DNA from: Mesotoga infera
GTDB lineage: Bacteria; Thermotogota; Thermotogae; Petrotogales; Kosmotogaceae
Assembly (NCBI RefSeq): GCF_900157305.1
Contig: NZ_LS974202.1
Span: 1,798,001-1,862,000, forward strand
Length of the DNA stretch: 64,000 bases
Reading direction: 5' to 3'
The position numbers were made by a program, and so were the translations under genes. Positions 47,932-58,438 of the stretch are shown piece after piece (the first letter of the stretch is position 1; every line of letters starts with the position of its first letter). Below the pieces are notes generated by a model that saw only the letters and a list, made by a program, of their open reading frames with translations, searched no databases and was not told where the DNA came from.

Positions 47932-47995
47932 TATACAGTAAGGTATGTTCCGCTCCGTGGGTGATATCTCGAAAGACGAATATGAGGTGATTTGG

Positions 47996-49033
47996 TTGCA
48001 AGAAAGACCGATCCTTTCGGTTAAAAATCTTTCCACACATTTTAAAATGGTGGAAGGTGTTGTTAAAGCCGTTCAGGATGCCACTTTTGATTTATATCGC
48101 GATGAAGTATTGGGTATTGTGGGAGAGACCGGCTCTGGTAAGAGCGTTACGGTAAAGGCTATCGCTGGAATGATAGACAATCCGGGGTTCATAGCGGGTG
48201 GAGAGGTACTCTTTCTAACCGACGAGTTTTCGAAGAGCGGTGAAAAGGAATACATAGATCTCGCCAAGCTTCCCAAAGAGAGTTTTTCACGAATACGAGG
48301 CAAGCACATCGGAATGATTTTTCAGGATCCTATGACTTCTCTGGATCCTATGTACACCATAGGCAATCAAATGATAGAGACCATTGTACACCACAAGGGT
48401 ATTACGGCGGAGGAAGCCCGGGAAAGGGCCGTCAAGTTGCTCGAACAGGTGGGTATTCCTAAACCGTCTGAGAGGATCAACGATTACCCCTTCCAACTTT
48501 CCGGAGGTCAGAGACAGAGGGTGGTGATTGCGATAGCGCTCTCGTGCGACCCCGATATACTGATAGCCGACGAGCCTTCCACCGCCCTTGACGTCACCGT
48601 TCAGGCTCAGATACTGGAGCTGATGAAGGATCTTCAGGAACAGTTCAACAGCAGCATGATGTTCATCACTCACGATATGGCGGTAATAGCCGAAATCGCC
48701 ACGAAAATAACCGTGATGTACGGGAGTTATCAGATGGAGATGGGACAATCCAAAGATATCTTCGAGCACCCTATGAATCCATATACAAATGCGTTGCTTG
48801 AATGCATCCCGAGACTCGATGTTAAACTGGATAGGCTTCTTCCAATTCCAGGCCAGCCGCCAGTGATGCTCAATCCACCGGATCTCTGTCCCTTTCTTCC
48901 GCGTTGTTCCAGAGCTGGAGAAAAGTGTTACAGGGATCTTCCACAAATGGAGCAGATGGGCGACAATCATTTTGTCAGATGCTGGAATCCAATCGCAGGA
49001 AAAGTCAGGCTGGTCAAGGAGGCTCAAGGATGA
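47996..49033 (+). CDS. oppD: Oligopeptide ABC transporter ATP-binding protein OppD
   Basis: About 345 residues from a TTG with GAGGTGA upstream. Walker [16 protein letters not shown]-loop [13 protein letters not shown], signature [14 protein letters not shown], Walker [15 protein letters not shown]. The C-terminal oligopeptide domain has the cluster [17 protein letters not shown] with four Cys, which in this family can bind an Fe-S cluster. The frame opens at 47945. It overlaps oppF by ATGA. Confidence 0.93.
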
Positions 49034-50196
49034 AGCTTCTCGAAGTCAAAAATTTGAAAAAGTATTTTCCGATAAAGCAAGGCTTCCTCGTGGAGAGAGT
49101 AGTAGGCTTTGTCAAAGCCGTAGATGACGTCTCTTTTTCCGTTGACCGCGGGAAGACGATTGGAATAGTTGGAGAATCCGGTTGTGGAAAGACTACGATA
49201 GGCAAATCGATTATCAGATTGCACGAAGTTACCGACGGAGAGATGCTAATAGATGAGGAAGATACGACCTTCTACTTCATGAAGCGCAAAAGGGCTCTCC
49301 AATATCTGAAGTCCAAGTACTTCAAAAATCCAGATTTCGATGGCGATGGAAGCGGGCTCGAAACGTACAAGAAAAAGATACACGACGTTTTTGTGAAGTC
49401 CGATAGAAATCCTTCAAAAACGCTGAACACTCTTTTCGAGAACCTGGAAGAGAAGAAGAGATTGTTGAGAAGAAAGGCGCAGATAGTCTTTCAGGATCCG
49501 ATGTCGTCGCTCAACCCGAGGATGACCGTCGGACAGATGCTCGCCGAACCGCTTCTCTTCCACAAAATTGCTGAAAAAATGGATGATGCGATAGTCATGG
49601 TCAAAGACCTTCTCGTAAAAGTTGGTCTTAAGGCTTATCACGTGGATAGGTACCCCCACCAGTTCAGTGGAGGCCAGCGACAGAGAATAGCCGTGGCTAG
49701 GGCTATAAGCGTAAATCCCGAGTTGATAGTTCTCGATGAACCTACCTCGGCTCTGGACGTTTCAGTTCAGGCACAGATAGTGAACCTTTTCGAAGAGCTT
49801 CAAGAGCAGCTGAATGCGGGTTATGTTTTCATCTCTCACAATCTTGCGCTCGTGAGATTCATCTGTCAGGAAGTTTCTGTTATGTACCTCGGAAGAATAG
49901 TTGAACAGGGCGATAGTGAGTCGATATTCGACGCTCCGCTCCACCCATACACTAAAGCCTTGCTAGCGGCGGCCCCGATCCCCGATCCGAACAAAAAACG
50001 CAATCGGAAAGATCTAATTGGTGGGCAGGTTCCAAGTCCAATCAACAGGCCATCCGGTTGCTTCTTCAATCCGAGGTGCAAGTACAGGATGGATATATGT
50101 ACCAGGGAATATCCACAAATGTTCAAGGTGGATCAAAAGCATTTTGTAGCGTGCCATCTTTATTCCACATCTCAAGAACAAGGAGGGGAAAAGTAA
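49030..50196 (+). CDS. oppF: Oligopeptide ABC transporter ATP-binding protein OppF with an insertion
   Basis: About 388 residues from the ATG that overlaps the oppD stop. Walker [10 protein letters not shown] (residues 48-56), signature [24 protein letters not shown]. Between Walker A and the Q-loop ([10 protein letters not shown], from 154) there is an insert at about residues 80-143, mostly charged helix, with [12 protein letters not shown] (102-113), an EF-hand-like Asp pattern. The C-terminal four-Cys oligopeptide motif has [15 protein letters not shown]. The coupling to the next gene is by TAATG. Confidence 0.92.
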
Positions 50197-51917
50197 TGAA
50201 GAAATTTCTAGTGCTTCTTTCTGTACTTCTGGTAGCCGTATTTTTAATGGCGGCACCGGAGTACAAAGTAGAAAATTTCAACGGAAAGCCCGGAGGAACC
50301 TTCTATTATTGGGGACTGGGTGATCCCAAATCTTTTAACATCGATTGGGCGCAGGAAACAAGCTCGACCGTTCCACTGGGCTTTATCCATGCTACGTTGT
50401 TAGAAGCCGACGAAGGCGGTATGCCAACCCAGGAAGGCCTTGCAAAGGAATGGTGGTTCTCCGACGACGGACTGACCTTCTTCGTCAAGATCAGGGAAGG
50501 AATTAAATGGTCCGATGGAACTCCATTCACCATTGACGACGTTTACTGGAACTTCGTGGATGTAGCGCTGAATCCGGAACAGACGGCCAACGGAAATGGT
50601 TCTTACATGGACTCGAACGATCAGCTCCCCATTGTGAAGATAGTTGACGATACAACTATCTCCTTCACCTGGACCGTTCCGATGGTGACCGCGTTGAGAC
50701 AGGTCGGTTTCAGGACGATAGTTCCGAAACACATTCTAGGCGAGGCTGTCGCGAACGGAACCTATGCCGAGCAGTGGACGATAGCCGACGTTGACAAGCT
50801 CGTCGGAATGGGTCCCTACATAATGACCGAGTATGTCGAAGGCGTCAGAATCGTTTTCGAGAGAAACCCCAATTACTGGAAAGTAGATGCAAACGGTGTT
50901 CAGCTTCCTTATCTAGACAAAGTCAACTACGAGATCATCAGCGACCAGAACACCGCCCTTCTGAGATTCGAAGCTGGTGAGCTGGATATTTACGGCCCGA
51001 GCGCCGAGCAATTCCCGAGACTTGCCGAGATGGCTGCTGAAAAGGGTTGGGTTACAGGTGTCGGTGGACCGGCTCTCGGCTCGGAGTTTATAACTTTCAA
51101 CTTCAACACCAAGGATCCTATCAAGAACGAGTGGTTCAGAAACGAATACTTCAGAAAGGCCTTCGTTTACGCTCTCGACAGACAGTCGATCATCGATTCT
51201 CTTTACAACGGACTCGGTTCTCCTCTCTATGGACCGGTCTCTCCCTCGAGTGGTTTCTACAACCCCGAGATCGAGAAGTACAACTACAAGTACTCCATAA
51301 CCAGAGCTAGACTCGAGCTTAAGAAGGGTGGCTTCGACTGGTTGCCTGACGGTACGCTCGTTGACTCGAAGGGTAACAAGGTGGAGTTTGAGCTCCTGAC
51401 AAACGCAGGAAACAGAACACGTGAAGCCATCGGTAATATCGTAGTTGACGGAGCTTCGAAACTCGGAATAAAGGTCAATTTCACGCCTATTCAGTTCAAT
51501 ACCGTGGTTAGTAGACTTCTTGACGCCACTTACGAAGCCGTTGTTATAGGTCTCACAGGCTCGGTCGATCCCGGAACCGGTTGGAACGTTTACAGACTCG
51601 ACGGTGGTCTCCACTTCTGGAACTATCCGCCGTCCTACAATGAAGAAGACCACATAACTGAAGACATGTACATTCTTCCCGACTGGGAGAAGAGGGTCGA
51701 CGAGATCTACAGACTACAGACTTCCGCGGTTGTCGATCAGGACAGGTACAATCTCTTCGCCGAGTTCCAGATGATCTTCGCCGAGTACCAGCCAGTTGTC
51801 TTCACGATGGCTCAGAACTTCCTCTATGTACACAAGGGCAATTTCCATCTGTCGGTTCCACAGCTGAGCCCTGCGACCGGCATTCTGTACCAGGTAGAGG
51901 GTTTCTGGAAAGACTGA
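50196..51917 (+). CDS. oppA: Oligopeptide ABC transporter substrate-binding protein
   Basis: 573 residues from the ATG at 50196 with AAGGAGGGG upstream. A signal peptide (KKFLVLLSVLLVAVFLMAA) is followed by a cluster-C binding protein (SBP_bac_5): TFYYWGLGDPKSFN, LAKEWWFSDDGLTFFVKIREG, and VDKLVGMGPYIMTEYV. No lipobox Cys, which is common in Thermotogae. In some Thermotogae homologues bind sugars rather than peptides, so the substrate is open. A terminator-like hairpin follows. Confidence 0.92.
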   Translation: MKKFLVLLSVLLVAVFLMAAPEYKVENFNGKPGGTFYYWGLGDPKSFNIDWAQETSSTVPLGFIHATLLEADEGGMPTQEGLAKEWWFSDDGLTFFVKIREGIKWSDGTPFTIDDVYWNFVDVALNPEQTANGNGSYMDSNDQLPIVKIVDDTTISFTWTVPMVTALRQVGFRTIVPKHILGEAVANGTYAEQWTIADVDKLVGMGPYIMTEYVEGVRIVFERNPNYWKVDANGVQLPYLDKVNYEIISDQNTALLRFEAGELDIYGPSAEQFPRLAEMAAEKGWVTGVGGPALGSEFITFNFNTKDPIKNEWFRNEYFRKAFVYALDRQSIIDSLYNGLGSPLYGPVSPSSGFYNPEIEKYNYKYSITRARLELKKGGFDWLPDGTLVDSKGNKVEFELLTNAGNRTREAIGNIVVDGASKLGIKVNFTPIQFNTVVSRLLDATYEAVVIGLTGSVDPGTGWNVYRLDGGLHFWNYPPSYNEEDHITEDMYILPDWEKRVDEIYRLQTSAVVDQDRYNLFAEFQMIFAEYQPVVFTMAQNFLYVHKGNFHLSVPQLSPATGILYQVEGFWKD

Positions 51918-52003: not shown

Positions 52004-53079
52004 GTGCTTAAGTATATAGTGAGAAGGCTCATACTGGCCATTCCTGTTTTATTAGGGGTTTCGGTCCTAGCCTTCTTGATCATCTCGGCCGCTCCGGGTG
52101 ATTTTCTGGATGCCTATAGAATGAACCCTTCTATCACCAGAGATCAGCTGAAGCTTCTGGAGAGACAGTTCGGGCTCGATCAGAACGTCTTTGTTCAGTA
52201 TTTCAAATGGCTTGGAAACGTCTTAACGGGAAATTTTGGATACTCGTTCACCTATAGAGTGCCCGTTTTCAATCTGGTGTGGAGGAGATTGGGTGCTACA
52301 TTGCTTCTCAGCATAACCACAATGATTTTCACCTGGGGAATCGCCATACCTCTGGGTATATATTCGGCGCTTCATCAGTACTCGTTGAGCGACCAGACCT
52401 TCTCCTTTCTCGCATTCATAGGTATCTCCATTCCAAACTTCTTTTTCGCCTTACTATGGCTGTTTATGTCGGCTAAAACTGGCTGGTTTCCAATAGGCGG
52501 CTTGATATCACAGAACTTCAACGAACTCAGCTTTTTCGGGAAGATAGGCGATTACCTGTGGCACGTTGTCGGACCGATGGTAACGCTCGGCACTTCGGGG
52601 CTGGCAGGGCTCATGAGACAGATGCGTGGACAACTCCTCGACCAGCTAAGGCAGGATTACGTCCTTTTCGCCAGGGCAAAGGGCATGCCTGAGAAGAATG
52701 TTATATACAAGCACGCCGTAAGAAACGCGATAAACCCGATAGTGACTATATTTGGCTATGCACTTTCCGGACTCCTCGGCGGAGCCGTCCTCACAGAGAC
52801 GGTCTTCGGCTGGCCCGGTATGGGTAGGCTTGTCATAGAGGCTTTGAACGCTCAGGATCTATTTCTGGTCATGGCTACGCTGGCGGAGCCGTCCTCACAG
52901 AGACGGTCTTCGGCTGGCCCGGTATGGGTAGGCTTGTCATAGAGGCTTTGAACGCTCAGGATCTATTTCTGGTCATGGCTACGCTTCTTCTGTCGGCCGT
53001 TCTACTGGTTATAGGTAATCTTCTGGCCGATCTTATGCTTGCCTGGGTCGATCCGAGAATAAGGTTCAGGTTAGGCTGA
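52004..53079 (+). pseudogene. oppB: Peptide ABC permease gene oppB, frameshifted by a tandem duplication
   Basis: An intact copy would have 323 residues: an N-terminal membrane helix, LLERQFGLDQNVFVQYFKWL, membrane helices, the EAA loop (DYVLFARAKGMPEKNVIYKH) and a C-terminus ending near VDPRIRFRLG. A perfect 104-bp direct repeat (52778-52985) shifts the frame, so translation from GTG 52004 stops at 52942 with a foreign tail (AEPSSQRRSSAGPVWVGLS). The last membrane helix is lost. The original C-terminus is still encoded up to 53079. Confidence 0.9.
52778..52985. repeat. 104-bp perfect tandem duplication
   Basis: Copy 1 is 52778-52881 and copy 2 is 52882-52985; both begin GGCGGAGCCGTCC and end ATGGCTACGCT, with no difference between them. 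104 is not a multiple of three. No microhomology is visible at the junction. Loss of one copy would restore oppB. Confidence 0.97.
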
Positions 53080-53092
53080 GGGGTGAGTTGGA

Positions 53093-54751
53093 GTGAAAAA
53101 AGAGAAGAAGAACGATCTGATAGTGACTCCTCAGGAAGTGAAAAAAGACGAACTCTTCGAAGTCAAATACATGGGCCGCTGGCAACTCGCATGGCGCGCC
53201 CTCAAAAAGCACAAGCTGGGACTCTTTTCACTTTGGGTACTAATAATACTCTATCTCGTTGCGATTTTCGCGGATTTTCTGGCTCCCAACAACCCTTATG
53301 ATCAGAGGCAGGATCTTTCATACGCTCCTCCTTCGAAGGTCCACTGGACCGACGAAGAGGGAAAACTGACGGCTCCGTACATTTATGCCTGGGTGCTTGA
53401 GAGAGATCCCGAGACTTACAGAACCTTTTTTACGGAGGGAATCTCTCTGGGATCGGTTGTCGCCATCGACAGGGCGACCGGCGAGGAGAAGACCTTTGAA
53501 CAGGGTAAAGATGGCGTAATGAATATATACGTGACCACGAAAACCGTTCGATATGCGCTCGATGCGGACGGAAATAGGGCCAACCTAGGAGGCCCCGAGT
53601 ACAGTACGGTTCAGACCGTAAAATTGACCGAACTGGATATGCTGAAAGAGACTGTTGTCACCGAGACATCCAACAGGACAACCCTCGGCTCGCTCGCTCC
53701 CAGCAGGTTCAGAGAGTTACTGAGGATAGGTCCACCTGTAAAGGTGGTAACGGAGAGATCGTTGCATCGAATATTCGCCCAGAAGGAAGATGAAATAAAA
53801 GACGTCGTAGTGGAAGCCATGAATATAGTAAACGAGGTGATAGACGTCGATGGGGGCGACCTCGACCTGGCAAGGGAGTTTCTAGCGGAACTCGAAATCT
53901 CGCCAACTATAGTCGATGTGATTCAAGATCCCCAGGTCACAGATTACGTGACCAAGAAGTATCCGATAAAGTTCTTCACACAGTCCTGGGAGTACAAGTT
54001 ACTGGGATTCATTCCCATGAAGCTTCACCTGGTTGGCACGGACCTGCCTTCTAAGTTTCTTCTTTTCGGCTCTGATATGTACGGTAGAGACGTTTTCTCC
54101 AGAATACTGTTCGGTTCGAGAGTATCTATGAGTATCGGGCTTCTAGCGATCCTGATAACCTTCTCTCTAGGACTTTCCATTGGTGGAGCGGCCGGATACT
54201 TCGGTGGTATCACCGATGAAATCCTTATGAGAGTGACGGAAATTCTTATGTCGATACCTAGCTTTTACCTGCTGATCTCTCTGAGGGCTGTTCTTCCAAC
54301 CAGCATACCCCCACACATCACGTATATTCTCATAGTCCTCATATTGAGTTTCATAGGCTGGCCGGGAATGTCGAGGGTGATCAGGGGCATGGTTTTGAGT
54401 TACAAAGAAACGGAGTTTGTACAGGCCGCCATAGCTATGGGATATCCATCGGGGCGGGTTATACTTCGCCACATCATACCCAACACTGCGACTTATATAA
54501 TAGTATCGGCCACTCTGTCGATTCCAGGATACATACTGGGAGAGGCGGGTCTGAGCTTCCTGGGTCTGGGAATAACCGAACCGTCGGCCAGCTGGGGACT
54601 GATGCTCTCTCAGGCTCAGAACATAAAGGCGATGACCGAGGCACCGTGGCTTCTGATACCGGGTATCTTCATATTCATCGTGGTCATGGCCTTCAACTTG
54701 CTGGGCGACGCCCTGAGAGATGCGCTAGATCCAAGATCGCTGGGTTTCTAA
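53093..54751 (+). CDS. oppC: Peptide ABC permease OppC with a large periplasmic insert
   Basis: 552 residues from a GTG with GAGGGGTGAG upstream; usual OppC are about 300. TM1 is at about 45-65 (LGLFSLWVLIILYLVAIF). An insert of about 250 residues reaches to about 325, where the conserved LFGSDMYGRDVFSRILFGSRVS begins, followed by the normal five-helix permease core with the EAA loop (ETEFVQAAIAMGYPSGRVILRH). The insert is hydrophilic and predicted outside the membrane. Some Thermotogae OppC carry a shorter extension at the same place. Confidence 0.9.
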   Translation: MKKEKKNDLIVTPQEVKKDELFEVKYMGRWQLAWRALKKHKLGLFSLWVLIILYLVAIFADFLAPNNPYDQRQDLSYAPPSKVHWTDEEGKLTAPYIYAWVLERDPETYRTFFTEGISLGSVVAIDRATGEEKTFEQGKDGVMNIYVTTKTVRYALDADGNRANLGGPEYSTVQTVKLTELDMLKETVVTETSNRTTLGSLAPSRFRELLRIGPPVKVVTERSLHRIFAQKEDEIKDVVVEAMNIVNEVIDVDGGDLDLAREFLAELEISPTIVDVIQDPQVTDYVTKKYPIKFFTQSWEYKLLGFIPMKLHLVGTDLPSKFLLFGSDMYGRDVFSRILFGSRVSMSIGLLAILITFSLGLSIGGAAGYFGGITDEILMRVTEILMSIPSFYLLISLRAVLPTSIPPHITYILIVLILSFIGWPGMSRVIRGMVLSYKETEFVQAAIAMGYPSGRVILRHIIPNTATYIIVSATLSIPGYILGEAGLSFLGLGITEPSASWGLMLSQAQNIKAMTEAPWLLIPGIFIFIVVMAFNLLGDALRDALDPRSLGF

Positions 54752-55303: not shown

Positions 55304-56560
55304 TCAGAACGAGTAGTTGTAGAACAGCTTCACGTACCAGTCGATCGCCGGGAAGAAGGCAACACTGGCTTCGAAGTTGATCAGATCGAAGACCGGGAAG
55401 CCGAGCACAACATTGAGTGCCTTCGTGCCGTTGAGCAGGTAGTAACCGCCGTCGATGCTGAGTGTCGGCTTGAATCCACCCATCGCGAGGGAGAGAGAAG
55501 CCTCTGCGTAAGCGGAGAGATCCTTCACATCTGCGAGAAGGTTACCGACTATATCGTAACCGAAGCCGGCTTTGTTGACGTCGTCCTTGGTCGTGAAATC
55601 GCCGGAACCGACAAAGACAGCCAGAGAAACCGGATCCAGTTCCCAACCGTCGGACTTGACCAGGAATCCGAGCTTCATTTCGTTCGTACCACCGACGAGG
55701 AAGGAGTGGTCGTACCAGAACTTCACACCTGCCCAGCCTATGCCCTTCTTGGAGAGCGCGGCCTGGATCCAGCTGAATAGTTTGCTGGCTGCGATATCGT
55801 ACTTAACGTCGGCGTTGGTTTTCAGAACTACGCTTTCACCGATACTGTAACCTACCTTGAGACCTACCCACTGGCCCTTGGTGCTGGCGTATCTCGCATA
55901 CGGGTTGAGGGTGAGAAGTCCGAGAGTCATCTTGTAATCGAAATCTATAACGTAGTCGAATGCGGGTGTACCGGTGAGATCCTTGGCTTCGAGACCACCC
56001 TTGAGAGTGAGACCGGTGAACGGCTTAACGGTGGCTTCGGCTATCAGGTCGCCGCTCCAGCCCAGACCGGCCATACCGGTCTGAAGGGCCACGGAGAAGA
56101 TATCCCAAGAGCCGTACAGGGCGATTCTGTCCGTACCGCCAATGAGGGCTTCCTGCGTTGCGACCTGAAGACCGAGCGCCTTCATATTGAGAACGAAGGT
56201 CTTGGACTTGGTCGTACCGTAGTAGGCGAACCAGCTGAGACCTTTACCGCTGTCGCTACCGAAAGACTTACTGGCGTACCAGCTGGCAGCAGCCTTGTCG
56301 TTCTCCACAGTGAAGGAATTGAGAGTTACAGTACCGCCCACTAGATCGATATTAAGGCTGAATGTCAGGTCGCTGACATTTGCAGAGGCTCCAAAGCCGA
56401 GAGACTTCAAAGCAAAACCGAGATCGGTGGTCAGGCCGTTCTTGTCAAGCTGAGTCTTACCCCATAACGTCCCTTTTATAGACGGGCTGAGAGTTATGGT
56501 TGCCGAGAAGGCGACCGAGATGGCCAAGAGTACCACTAAGATTCCAACAAGCTTCTTCAT
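55304..56560 (-). CDS. Outer-membrane (toga) beta-barrel protein, Omp-beta-like
   Basis: About 418 residues from the ATG at 56560 with GGGGG upstream. A signal peptide ends near SVAFSA. The rest is made of alternating hydrophobic and polar residues with many aromatic girdle residues and glycine, and ends in YNYSF, a C-terminal Phe as in outer-membrane barrels. No Pfam-like motif is recognised. Its position behind the Omp-alpha-like gene agrees with the toga porin/anchor pair known in Thermotoga. Its own promoter and terminator suggest strong expression. Confidence 0.82.
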   Translation of the reverse strand: MKKLVGILVVLLAISVAFSATITLSPSIKGTLWGKTQLDKNGLTTDLGFALKSLGFGASANVSDLTFSLNIDLVGGTVTLNSFTVENDKAAASWYASKSFGSDSGKGLSWFAYYGTTKSKTFVLNMKALGLQVATQEALIGGTDRIALYGSWDIFSVALQTGMAGLGWSGDLIAEATVKPFTGLTLKGGLEAKDLTGTPAFDYVIDFDYKMTLGLLTLNPYARYASTKGQWVGLKVGYSIGESVVLKTNADVKYDIAASKLFSWIQAALSKKGIGWAGVKFWYDHSFLVGGTNEMKLGFLVKSDGWELDPVSLAVFVGSGDFTTKDDVNKAGFGYDIVGNLLADVKDLSAYAEASLSLAMGGFKPTLSIDGGYYLLNGTKALNVVLGFPVFDLINFEASVAFFPAIDWYVKLFYNYSF

Positions 56561-56614
56561 GCACACTTACCCCCTTTATAAGAGTGTTTTGGTTTTGGTG
56601 ATGCGCATAACGTA

Positions 56615-56644
56615 AATATACCACATTTCATGTAACAAAAGCAA
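56615..56644 (-). promoter_or_regulatory. Promoter of the Omp-beta-like gene
   Basis: On the minus strand: TTGCTT, 18-bp spacer, TATATT with TG-G before it (extended -10). It lies in the gap between the two toga genes and gives a leader of about 50 nt with a strong GGGGG. Confidence 0.6.
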
Positions 56645-56674
56645 ACACACACGTGCCTAAGTTGCACAGAAAGA

Positions 56675-58438
56675 TCATTTCAGGATTAACCCTACCGCGC
56701 CAAATGCAAGAGCTACAAAAGAAAGTATTATCGCTGCATTTGTATTGGTGATGTTCTGTTTCTGGGTAGCTTCGAGAGCCAGAAGTTTTTCTTCGATGAC
56801 GGTGTCGTTGGCTTCGAGACTAGAAATTCTCTTCTCGGCGGCCGCGAGGTCTGCCTTGTCGGCTTTGGTCTTGTCGAGCTTGTACATCTGCTTTGCCATC
56901 GTGTTCGTGATGCTCGTCAGACTGTCGACCTGGTCCTCGAGGGTGGAGGCGAGAATCTCTAAGTCACCCGTTCTCTTGCTCAAAGAGGCGATTTCCTTGC
57001 CGTACTTGTCAAGCCTGGCTATGTTCGCATCGATCTGATCGAAGGCGACTTCAAGCATCTCTCTGTTTGCGGATACTTCCATCTGAACATGGTCCAGTTC
57101 TCCGTAGAGAAGGTCAATCTCTTTCTCAAAAGCTTCTTCGGTCAACCCAAGCTTCTTGTAGAGGAAATTGAGCTTGGCAGTGAGTTGATCGGGTGTTACA
57201 TAATCGAGGTTGGAAATCCTCTTGTTGGCAGCGATTATCGCGTTACTCAACATCTTCGAAGTTACTTCCAGGTCCGTCACTTTTCCCTTGAGCGTATCGA
57301 GATCGGCGGAGGAAGCTTTCGTGCCGAGTTCAAGCTCTATTTCAGATACGAGCTTTTCGTGCTTGTCGAGTCTGGCGATGTTGGCATCGACCTGATCAAA
57401 CACAACGGCAAAGCTTTCATCGACATCGTTGACTATGTCGGCTATCGCCGCCTCGATATTTCCGATTTCGGTGTCGTAGTACTTCACTTCGGGCATTTTT
57501 GCAAGGGTGTCCTGAATCCTGAGGATTTTCGTGTACATGAGTGAAAGCTTATCGTTCAATTCTTCACCGGTCACGAAAGGTTCTAGATCGGGTGTAGCCG
57601 ATTTGATAGCATCGCCCAACCTGCTCTCAAGAGCGGCCAGATCGTCTTTCGTAACCATAGCTTTCCTCAAAGCGAAGAGATCAGAAGTCAGCGAGTTCGC
57701 AACATTTTCGACTACGCCGATTCTGGAATCGAGATCCGCAATCTCACCCTTCTGCTCGTTTTCCTCCATCTTCTGGTTTGCAAGTGCCTGTCCAAGCAGT
57801 TTCACTGTTACTTCAAGGTCAGTGGCCCTGTTCTTGAGAGCTTCGATTTCCGAGGCGTAACTGCCGACCGCTTTCAATTTTGCATCGAGACCGGCAATAT
57901 CGTCCCTGACTCCCAGAAGAGCCTCCAGATCTGCCTTGAGACCTGCTACTCCCTCGTTGGCGCTTGCAGCTTCGCCGGAAAGCCTGTCGATCTCTCTGTA
58001 GAGATACGCGATGGTATCGTCGAAAGTCTTGGAAGTGACGAAATTGCCAACGATACCGCTATCCTTTAGAGAAGCGACAGTAGCTTCAAGAGCCCTCAGT
58101 TCCGCCATGAAATCAACTAGGTTTTTCTTGTTGTCAGAGATCTCCAGAGAAAGTCCTGCAACTTTCTTTGTGAGGGCAAAGACGACTTCCTGGAGTTTGG
58201 CATCCCCGGCATCTGAATAATCCATAAACCTGGCAAGGGTCATAGCCAGTTGGTAACGTGTTACATTTTCATTACCTCTGAAAGTGCCATCGGGGAAACC
58301 AATGAACAATCCACCGGCTGTCGTCTTTATTACACTGTCGTAGGCCCAGTGATTCTCTGACAAATCGCTGTACTCGACACCCAGAGCGAGGGTTGCGAAA
58401 GTAACAACGAGTAGAGCCAGTATAGAAAGCTTCTTCAT
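56675..58438 (-). CDS. SLH-domain coiled-coil outer-membrane tether, Omp-alpha-like
   Basis: 587 residues. A signal peptide (to about residue 20), an SLH domain (YSDLSENHWAYDSVIKTTA, then GGLFIGFPDGTFRGNENVTR), a coiled-coil rod from about 90 to 560 made of imperfect repeats (for example LDTLKGKVTDLEVTSKMLS and IEALKNRATDLEVTVKLLG), and a C-terminal membrane anchor (IILSFVALAFGAVGLIL). This is the layout of Thermotoga Omp-alpha, a spacer that links toga to the cell wall. The product should bind cell-wall polymers via SLH; csaB in the window fits this. Confidence 0.93.
   Translation of the reverse strand: MKKLSILALLVVTFATLALGVEYSDLSENHWAYDSVIKTTAGGLFIGFPDGTFRGNENVTRYQLAMTLARFMDYSDAGDAKLQEVVFALTKKVAGLSLEISDNKKNLVDFMAELRALEATVASLKDSGIVGNFVTSKTFDDTIAYLYREIDRLSGEAASANEGVAGLKADLEALLGVRDDIAGLDAKLKAVGSYASEIEALKNRATDLEVTVKLLGQALANQKMEENEQKGEIADLDSRIGVVENVANSLTSDLFALRKAMVTKDDLAALESRLGDAIKSATPDLEPFVTGEELNDKLSLMYTKILRIQDTLAKMPEVKYYDTEIGNIEAAIADIVNDVDESFAVVFDQVDANIARLDKHEKLVSEIELELGTKASSADLDTLKGKVTDLEVTSKMLSNAIIAANKRISNLDYVTPDQLTAKLNFLYKKLGLTEEAFEKEIDLLYGELDHVQMEVSANREMLEVAFDQIDANIARLDKYGKEIASLSKRTGDLEILASTLEDQVDSLTSITNTMAKQMYKLDKTKADKADLAAAEKRISSLEANDTVIEEKLLALEATQKQNITNTNAAIILSFVALAFGAVGLILK

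Follow-up and report, generated by a model that had tools for sequence, protein, structure and literature searches.

The window, by which we mean the whole analysed stretch of 64,000 nucleotides, carries a transporter gene cluster on the + strand in the order oppD-oppF-binding protein-oppB-oppC. Within the oppB-type gene, a unit of 104 bp occurs twice, head to tail. The features of the cluster are:

47945-49033, + strand: oppD-type ATPase (open reading frame, profile matches; no indel in comparison to the relative)
48904-50196, + strand: oppF-type ATPase (open reading frame, profile matches; the listed start is probably too far upstream)
50202-51917, + strand: family-5 solute-binding protein (PF00496; closest solved relative AppA, 1xoc; start approximate)
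52004-52942, + strand: truncated oppB/dppB-type permease open reading frame (PF00528, PF19300; best NCBIfam match Opp4B, below cut-off)
52778-52881, + strand: copy 1 of the 104-bp unit (repeat and alignment comparison)
52882-52985, + strand: copy 2 of the 104-bp unit, same letters as copy 1, out of frame for ribosomes coming from copy 1
52940-52942, + strand: premature stop codon TAG in copy 2 (sequence, frame translation)
52986-53080, + strand: remaining 3' part of native oppB, encoding the last membrane helix and the C-terminus; it lies out of frame and is presumably not translated
53093-54751, + strand: oppC-type permease, intact, directly 3' of the broken oppB (PF00528, PF12911)

An interrupted permease gene in an intact cluster

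Comparison of the two copies revealed identity at 104 of 104 positions, and the match ends at both outer edges of 52778-52985, resulting in exactly two units. The sequence-only reading had described a perfect head-to-tail duplication in an oppB-type gene, and its coordinates proved to be exact. The computed odds of an exact 104-bp tandem repeat arising by chance are about 1e-55, which excludes chance as its source.

As the length of the unit is no multiple of three, copy 2 is read out of frame: the open reading frame 52004-52942 encodes 312 aa, consisting of 293 native residues followed by 19 foreign ones and the stop. The product lacks the 30 native C-terminal residues and with them the final predicted membrane helix, which spans residues 296-314 in the intact relative, so that the complete C-terminal membrane helix of OppB/DppB-type permeases is absent. 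Both the frameshift and the helix loss had been recognized from the sequence alone, and the same is true for the displaced C-terminus. The native end is open in frame starting at 52882 and closes with DPRIRFRLG and a stop, as usual for the family, whose normal oppB stop lies near 53080; the segment 52986-53080 is identical to the closest relative in 94 of 95 bases.

Both permease domains of ABC importers, PF00528 and PF19300, scored above cut-off in the oppB reading frame, and the neighbouring genes carry PF00528/PF12911, PF00005/PF08352 and PF00496. The permease of the intact relative aligns with DppB (8z1v) and OppB (8z21) through to the end; together with Rv1283c (8j5q), these permeases are homologous over residues 1-320 or 1-321 of the relative's 323. 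In contrast to them, the window copy stops 30 native residues early. As it misses a helix that the solved homologues possess, the truncated permease is probably non-functional.

Peptide uptake, the function assumed in the sequence-only reading, is plausible, since among solved structures the binding protein is nearest to the oligopeptide protein AppA and the permease to DppB/OppB, but none of the cluster proteins reached an NCBIfam equivalog cut-off (the truncated protein scored 251.5 bits for Opp4B, with a curated cut-off of 450), and a peptide is therefore a putative substrate. Elsewhere in the genome, we identified 14 further OppB-like loci and 14 further family-5 binding proteins; loss of this oppB may thus be tolerated through the many paralogous transporters.

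The OppC-type permease at 53093-54751 differs from its relative by a single in-frame difference of 3 bp. It contains an extra stretch of roughly 200 residues between the first helix and the remainder of the protein (PF12911 at 29-80, PF00528 at 360-548). Two genes lie on the - strand at 55304-58438: the first encodes a coiled-coil protein with an SLH domain, the second, downstream, a protein without Pfam match that resembles an outer-membrane barrel; by appearance, the pair is reminiscent of OmpA/OmpB of the Thermotogales toga. Searches for a promoter or terminator in the region yielded nothing above shuffled sequence.

Rarity and age of the duplication

To place the duplication in its genomic context, tandem repeats were surveyed in 860 kb (29%) of the 2.97-Mb single-contig genome, sampled in stretches. 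In this sample, the 104-bp pair is the sole exact head-to-tail repeat with a unit of at least 30 bp. Lowering the unit size to at least 15 bp added one further exact case, a 22-bp duplication (L124 position 9070, about G000:C1:684070). These two exact cases (104 bp and 22 bp) in the 860 kb led us to reject the idea that such duplications are in excess across the genome. In 400 kb of another complete genome from the genus we detected no exact tandem duplication and one imperfect case (166 bp, copies 96% alike; L140 position 1531).

Repeats of other kinds were also recorded. Nearly exact long direct repeats with spacings of 957 bp (784 bp exact) and 477 bp are located at about 2300-4900 of L107 (G000:C1:1950001-1970000) and apparently represent a repeated domain within a large gene. 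Clustered short, partly palindromic repeats with motifs such as GTCATTCTGAGCTTGACTCAGAATC were found in the same genome at about 5567-6200 of L104, about 14777 and 19485 of L105 and about 7936 of L103; they perhaps form a REP-like or MITE-like family.

For the comparison with relatives, we used ten genomes of the genus plus three more distant MAGs. The stretch is single-copy in all genus relatives that carry the gene (8/8): both units of the window align to one stretch, and the alignments along oppB are free of gaps. The three MAGs likewise have one copy across the repeat. In the nearest relative (L003/L083), oppB is about 94% identical, intact and encodes 323 aa. The two genes differ by synonymous changes in 47 codons and non-synonymous changes in 2 (dN 0.0075, dS 0.27), which points to strong purifying selection on a gene that was functional until recently.

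Assuming neutrality and the absence of gene conversion, zero differences in 104 sites imply that, at most, roughly 11% of the divergence time from the nearest relative has passed since the event. No gene other than oppB carries a net frameshift over the ~61 kb aligned to this relative. The locus thus looks like a recent pseudogene, with a disrupted frame, intact relatives and little further decay. The lesion is young and lineage-private, in agreement with the earlier proposal of a very recent event, or else it is an assembly error.

Origin of the duplication

We consider it probable, though far from certain, that a recent, spontaneous and lineage-private duplication of 104 bp by illegitimate joining broke oppB, leaving the importer most likely off, serving no tuning and open to reversion. 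In one lineage, a single illegitimate (non-homologous) strand joining or a template switch would have duplicated this part of oppB. The shift of frame would end translation 19 codons into copy 2 and yield a permease devoid of its last membrane helix. The transporter would then most likely be off with its other genes still intact, and paralogous transporters would let the cell tolerate the loss. Finally, one copy could be lost by slippage or recombination, as holds for exact tandem repeats of such length in general, and the gene would be restored.

The junction shows 0 bp of microhomology. Ku was not found in the genome, so Ku-dependent end joining was rejected, whereas RecA is present. A hairpin-driven duplication was also rejected, as the hairpins near the breakpoints are no stronger than those of shuffled sequences (z -1.1, -0.2 and -0.4). 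Reversion to a single copy is plausible by analogy to E. coli, where one of two 101-bp tandem copies is frequently lost in a RecA-independent manner (PMC8378479). The engineered repeats in tetA used in that study are of nearly equal length and would predict the same behaviour here; however, they are plasmid-borne and reside in E. coli.

The presence of the two-copy state in cells is deduced from one assembly. In a Salmonella study, none of the verified spontaneous duplications had less than 11 bp of microhomology (PMC3411829). Together with the 0-bp junction and the missing Ku, this makes an origin from a chimera or from the assembly conceivable, and the sequence-only reading was right to keep an artefact as a live alternative. 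In that case the cells would have one copy and an intact oppB, and the doubling of the 104 bp would stem from a chimeric read or from local mis-joining in the assembly or polishing step. The perfect identity of the copies fits this explanation, as do the lone occurrence of an event of this size in 860 kb and the single-copy state of every relative in an otherwise conserved operon. Moreover, a random chimera gives a blunt junction more often than not (56% of random joins, computed), although this figure also weakens the argument from the missing microhomology. On the other hand, the surrounding 61 kb contain no other net frameshift, which speaks for a locally clean assembly, and assemblers collapse tandem copies more often than they create them. 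A generally poor assembly was rejected, as the other gene indels over the ~61 kb are compensated close by, preserve the frame or are located at the ends of genes. We therefore rate an artefact as rather unlikely, but as an explanation to be taken seriously.

If the two copies are real, the duplication could also be merely the route to a loss of function that was selected during laboratory or bioreactor growth. The recency of the event, the otherwise intact operon and the redundancy of the related transporters are compatible with this, and a one-base deletion disrupting oppB distinguishes the mouse-passaged Helicobacter pylori SS1 from its parent (PMC5358919). However, one event cannot show selection, and the literature on adaptive opp loss is thin; we regard this route as improbable. 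An even smaller chance is given to a gene that still works, its C-terminus being supplied by -1 frameshifting or by re-initiation in copy 2. If ribosomes shifted by -1 in the overlap (about 52828-52940), the product would regain its native end and contain ~35 repeated residues; for re-initiation, an ATG in frame is available at 52924, shortly before the premature stop. Both ways of rescue were rejected: the open overlap contains no X-XXY-YYZ slippery heptamer for programmed frameshifting, and no Shine-Dalgarno sequence, the ribosome-binding site needed for re-initiation, precedes the ATG.

The reversible ON/OFF switch suggested by the sequence-only reading

A true reversible switch would be a contingency locus, kept at appreciable frequency in the species, for one of ~15 related importers. 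The frequent deletion between exact 101-bp tandem repeats in E. coli argues for it, and so does the capsule of Streptococcus pneumoniae, where, according to work cited in PMC4243769 (Waite et al. 2001, 2003), reversible sequence duplications in cap3A, cap8E and tts give phase variation. As in oppB, a spontaneous tandem duplication within the reading frame inactivates these genes, and precise loss is possible. As presented there, however, phase variation of the capsule genes was observed in cultures, whereas oppB is a transporter gene with one assembly and no variants.

Our comparison did not support such a switch. Length variants among close relatives, expected at a contingency locus, were absent: none of the genus relatives varies in length at the site, all being single-copy. 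A feature that would make both directions of switching frequent was also lacking, as the breakpoints of the single-copy sequence carry no short direct repeat able to re-create the duplication and drive the ON-to-OFF step. Only the OFF-to-ON step would thus be easy. In addition, hairpins near the breakpoints do not exceed shuffled sequence, and the gene encodes a conserved permease instead of a surface antigen. A switch at this locus is accordingly very improbable, nearly as much so as a rescued gene product.

Our literature search yielded no report of an oppB gene with a tandem duplication. The lesion is a young frameshift duplication or an artefact, in either case of a well-known kind, and general views are unchanged by it. 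It carries a warning that the published genome may label an active transporter a pseudogene. If the spontaneous duplication is real, it would provide a clean natural case in the Thermotogota of a just-arisen and in principle revertible gene inactivation by a short tandem duplication.
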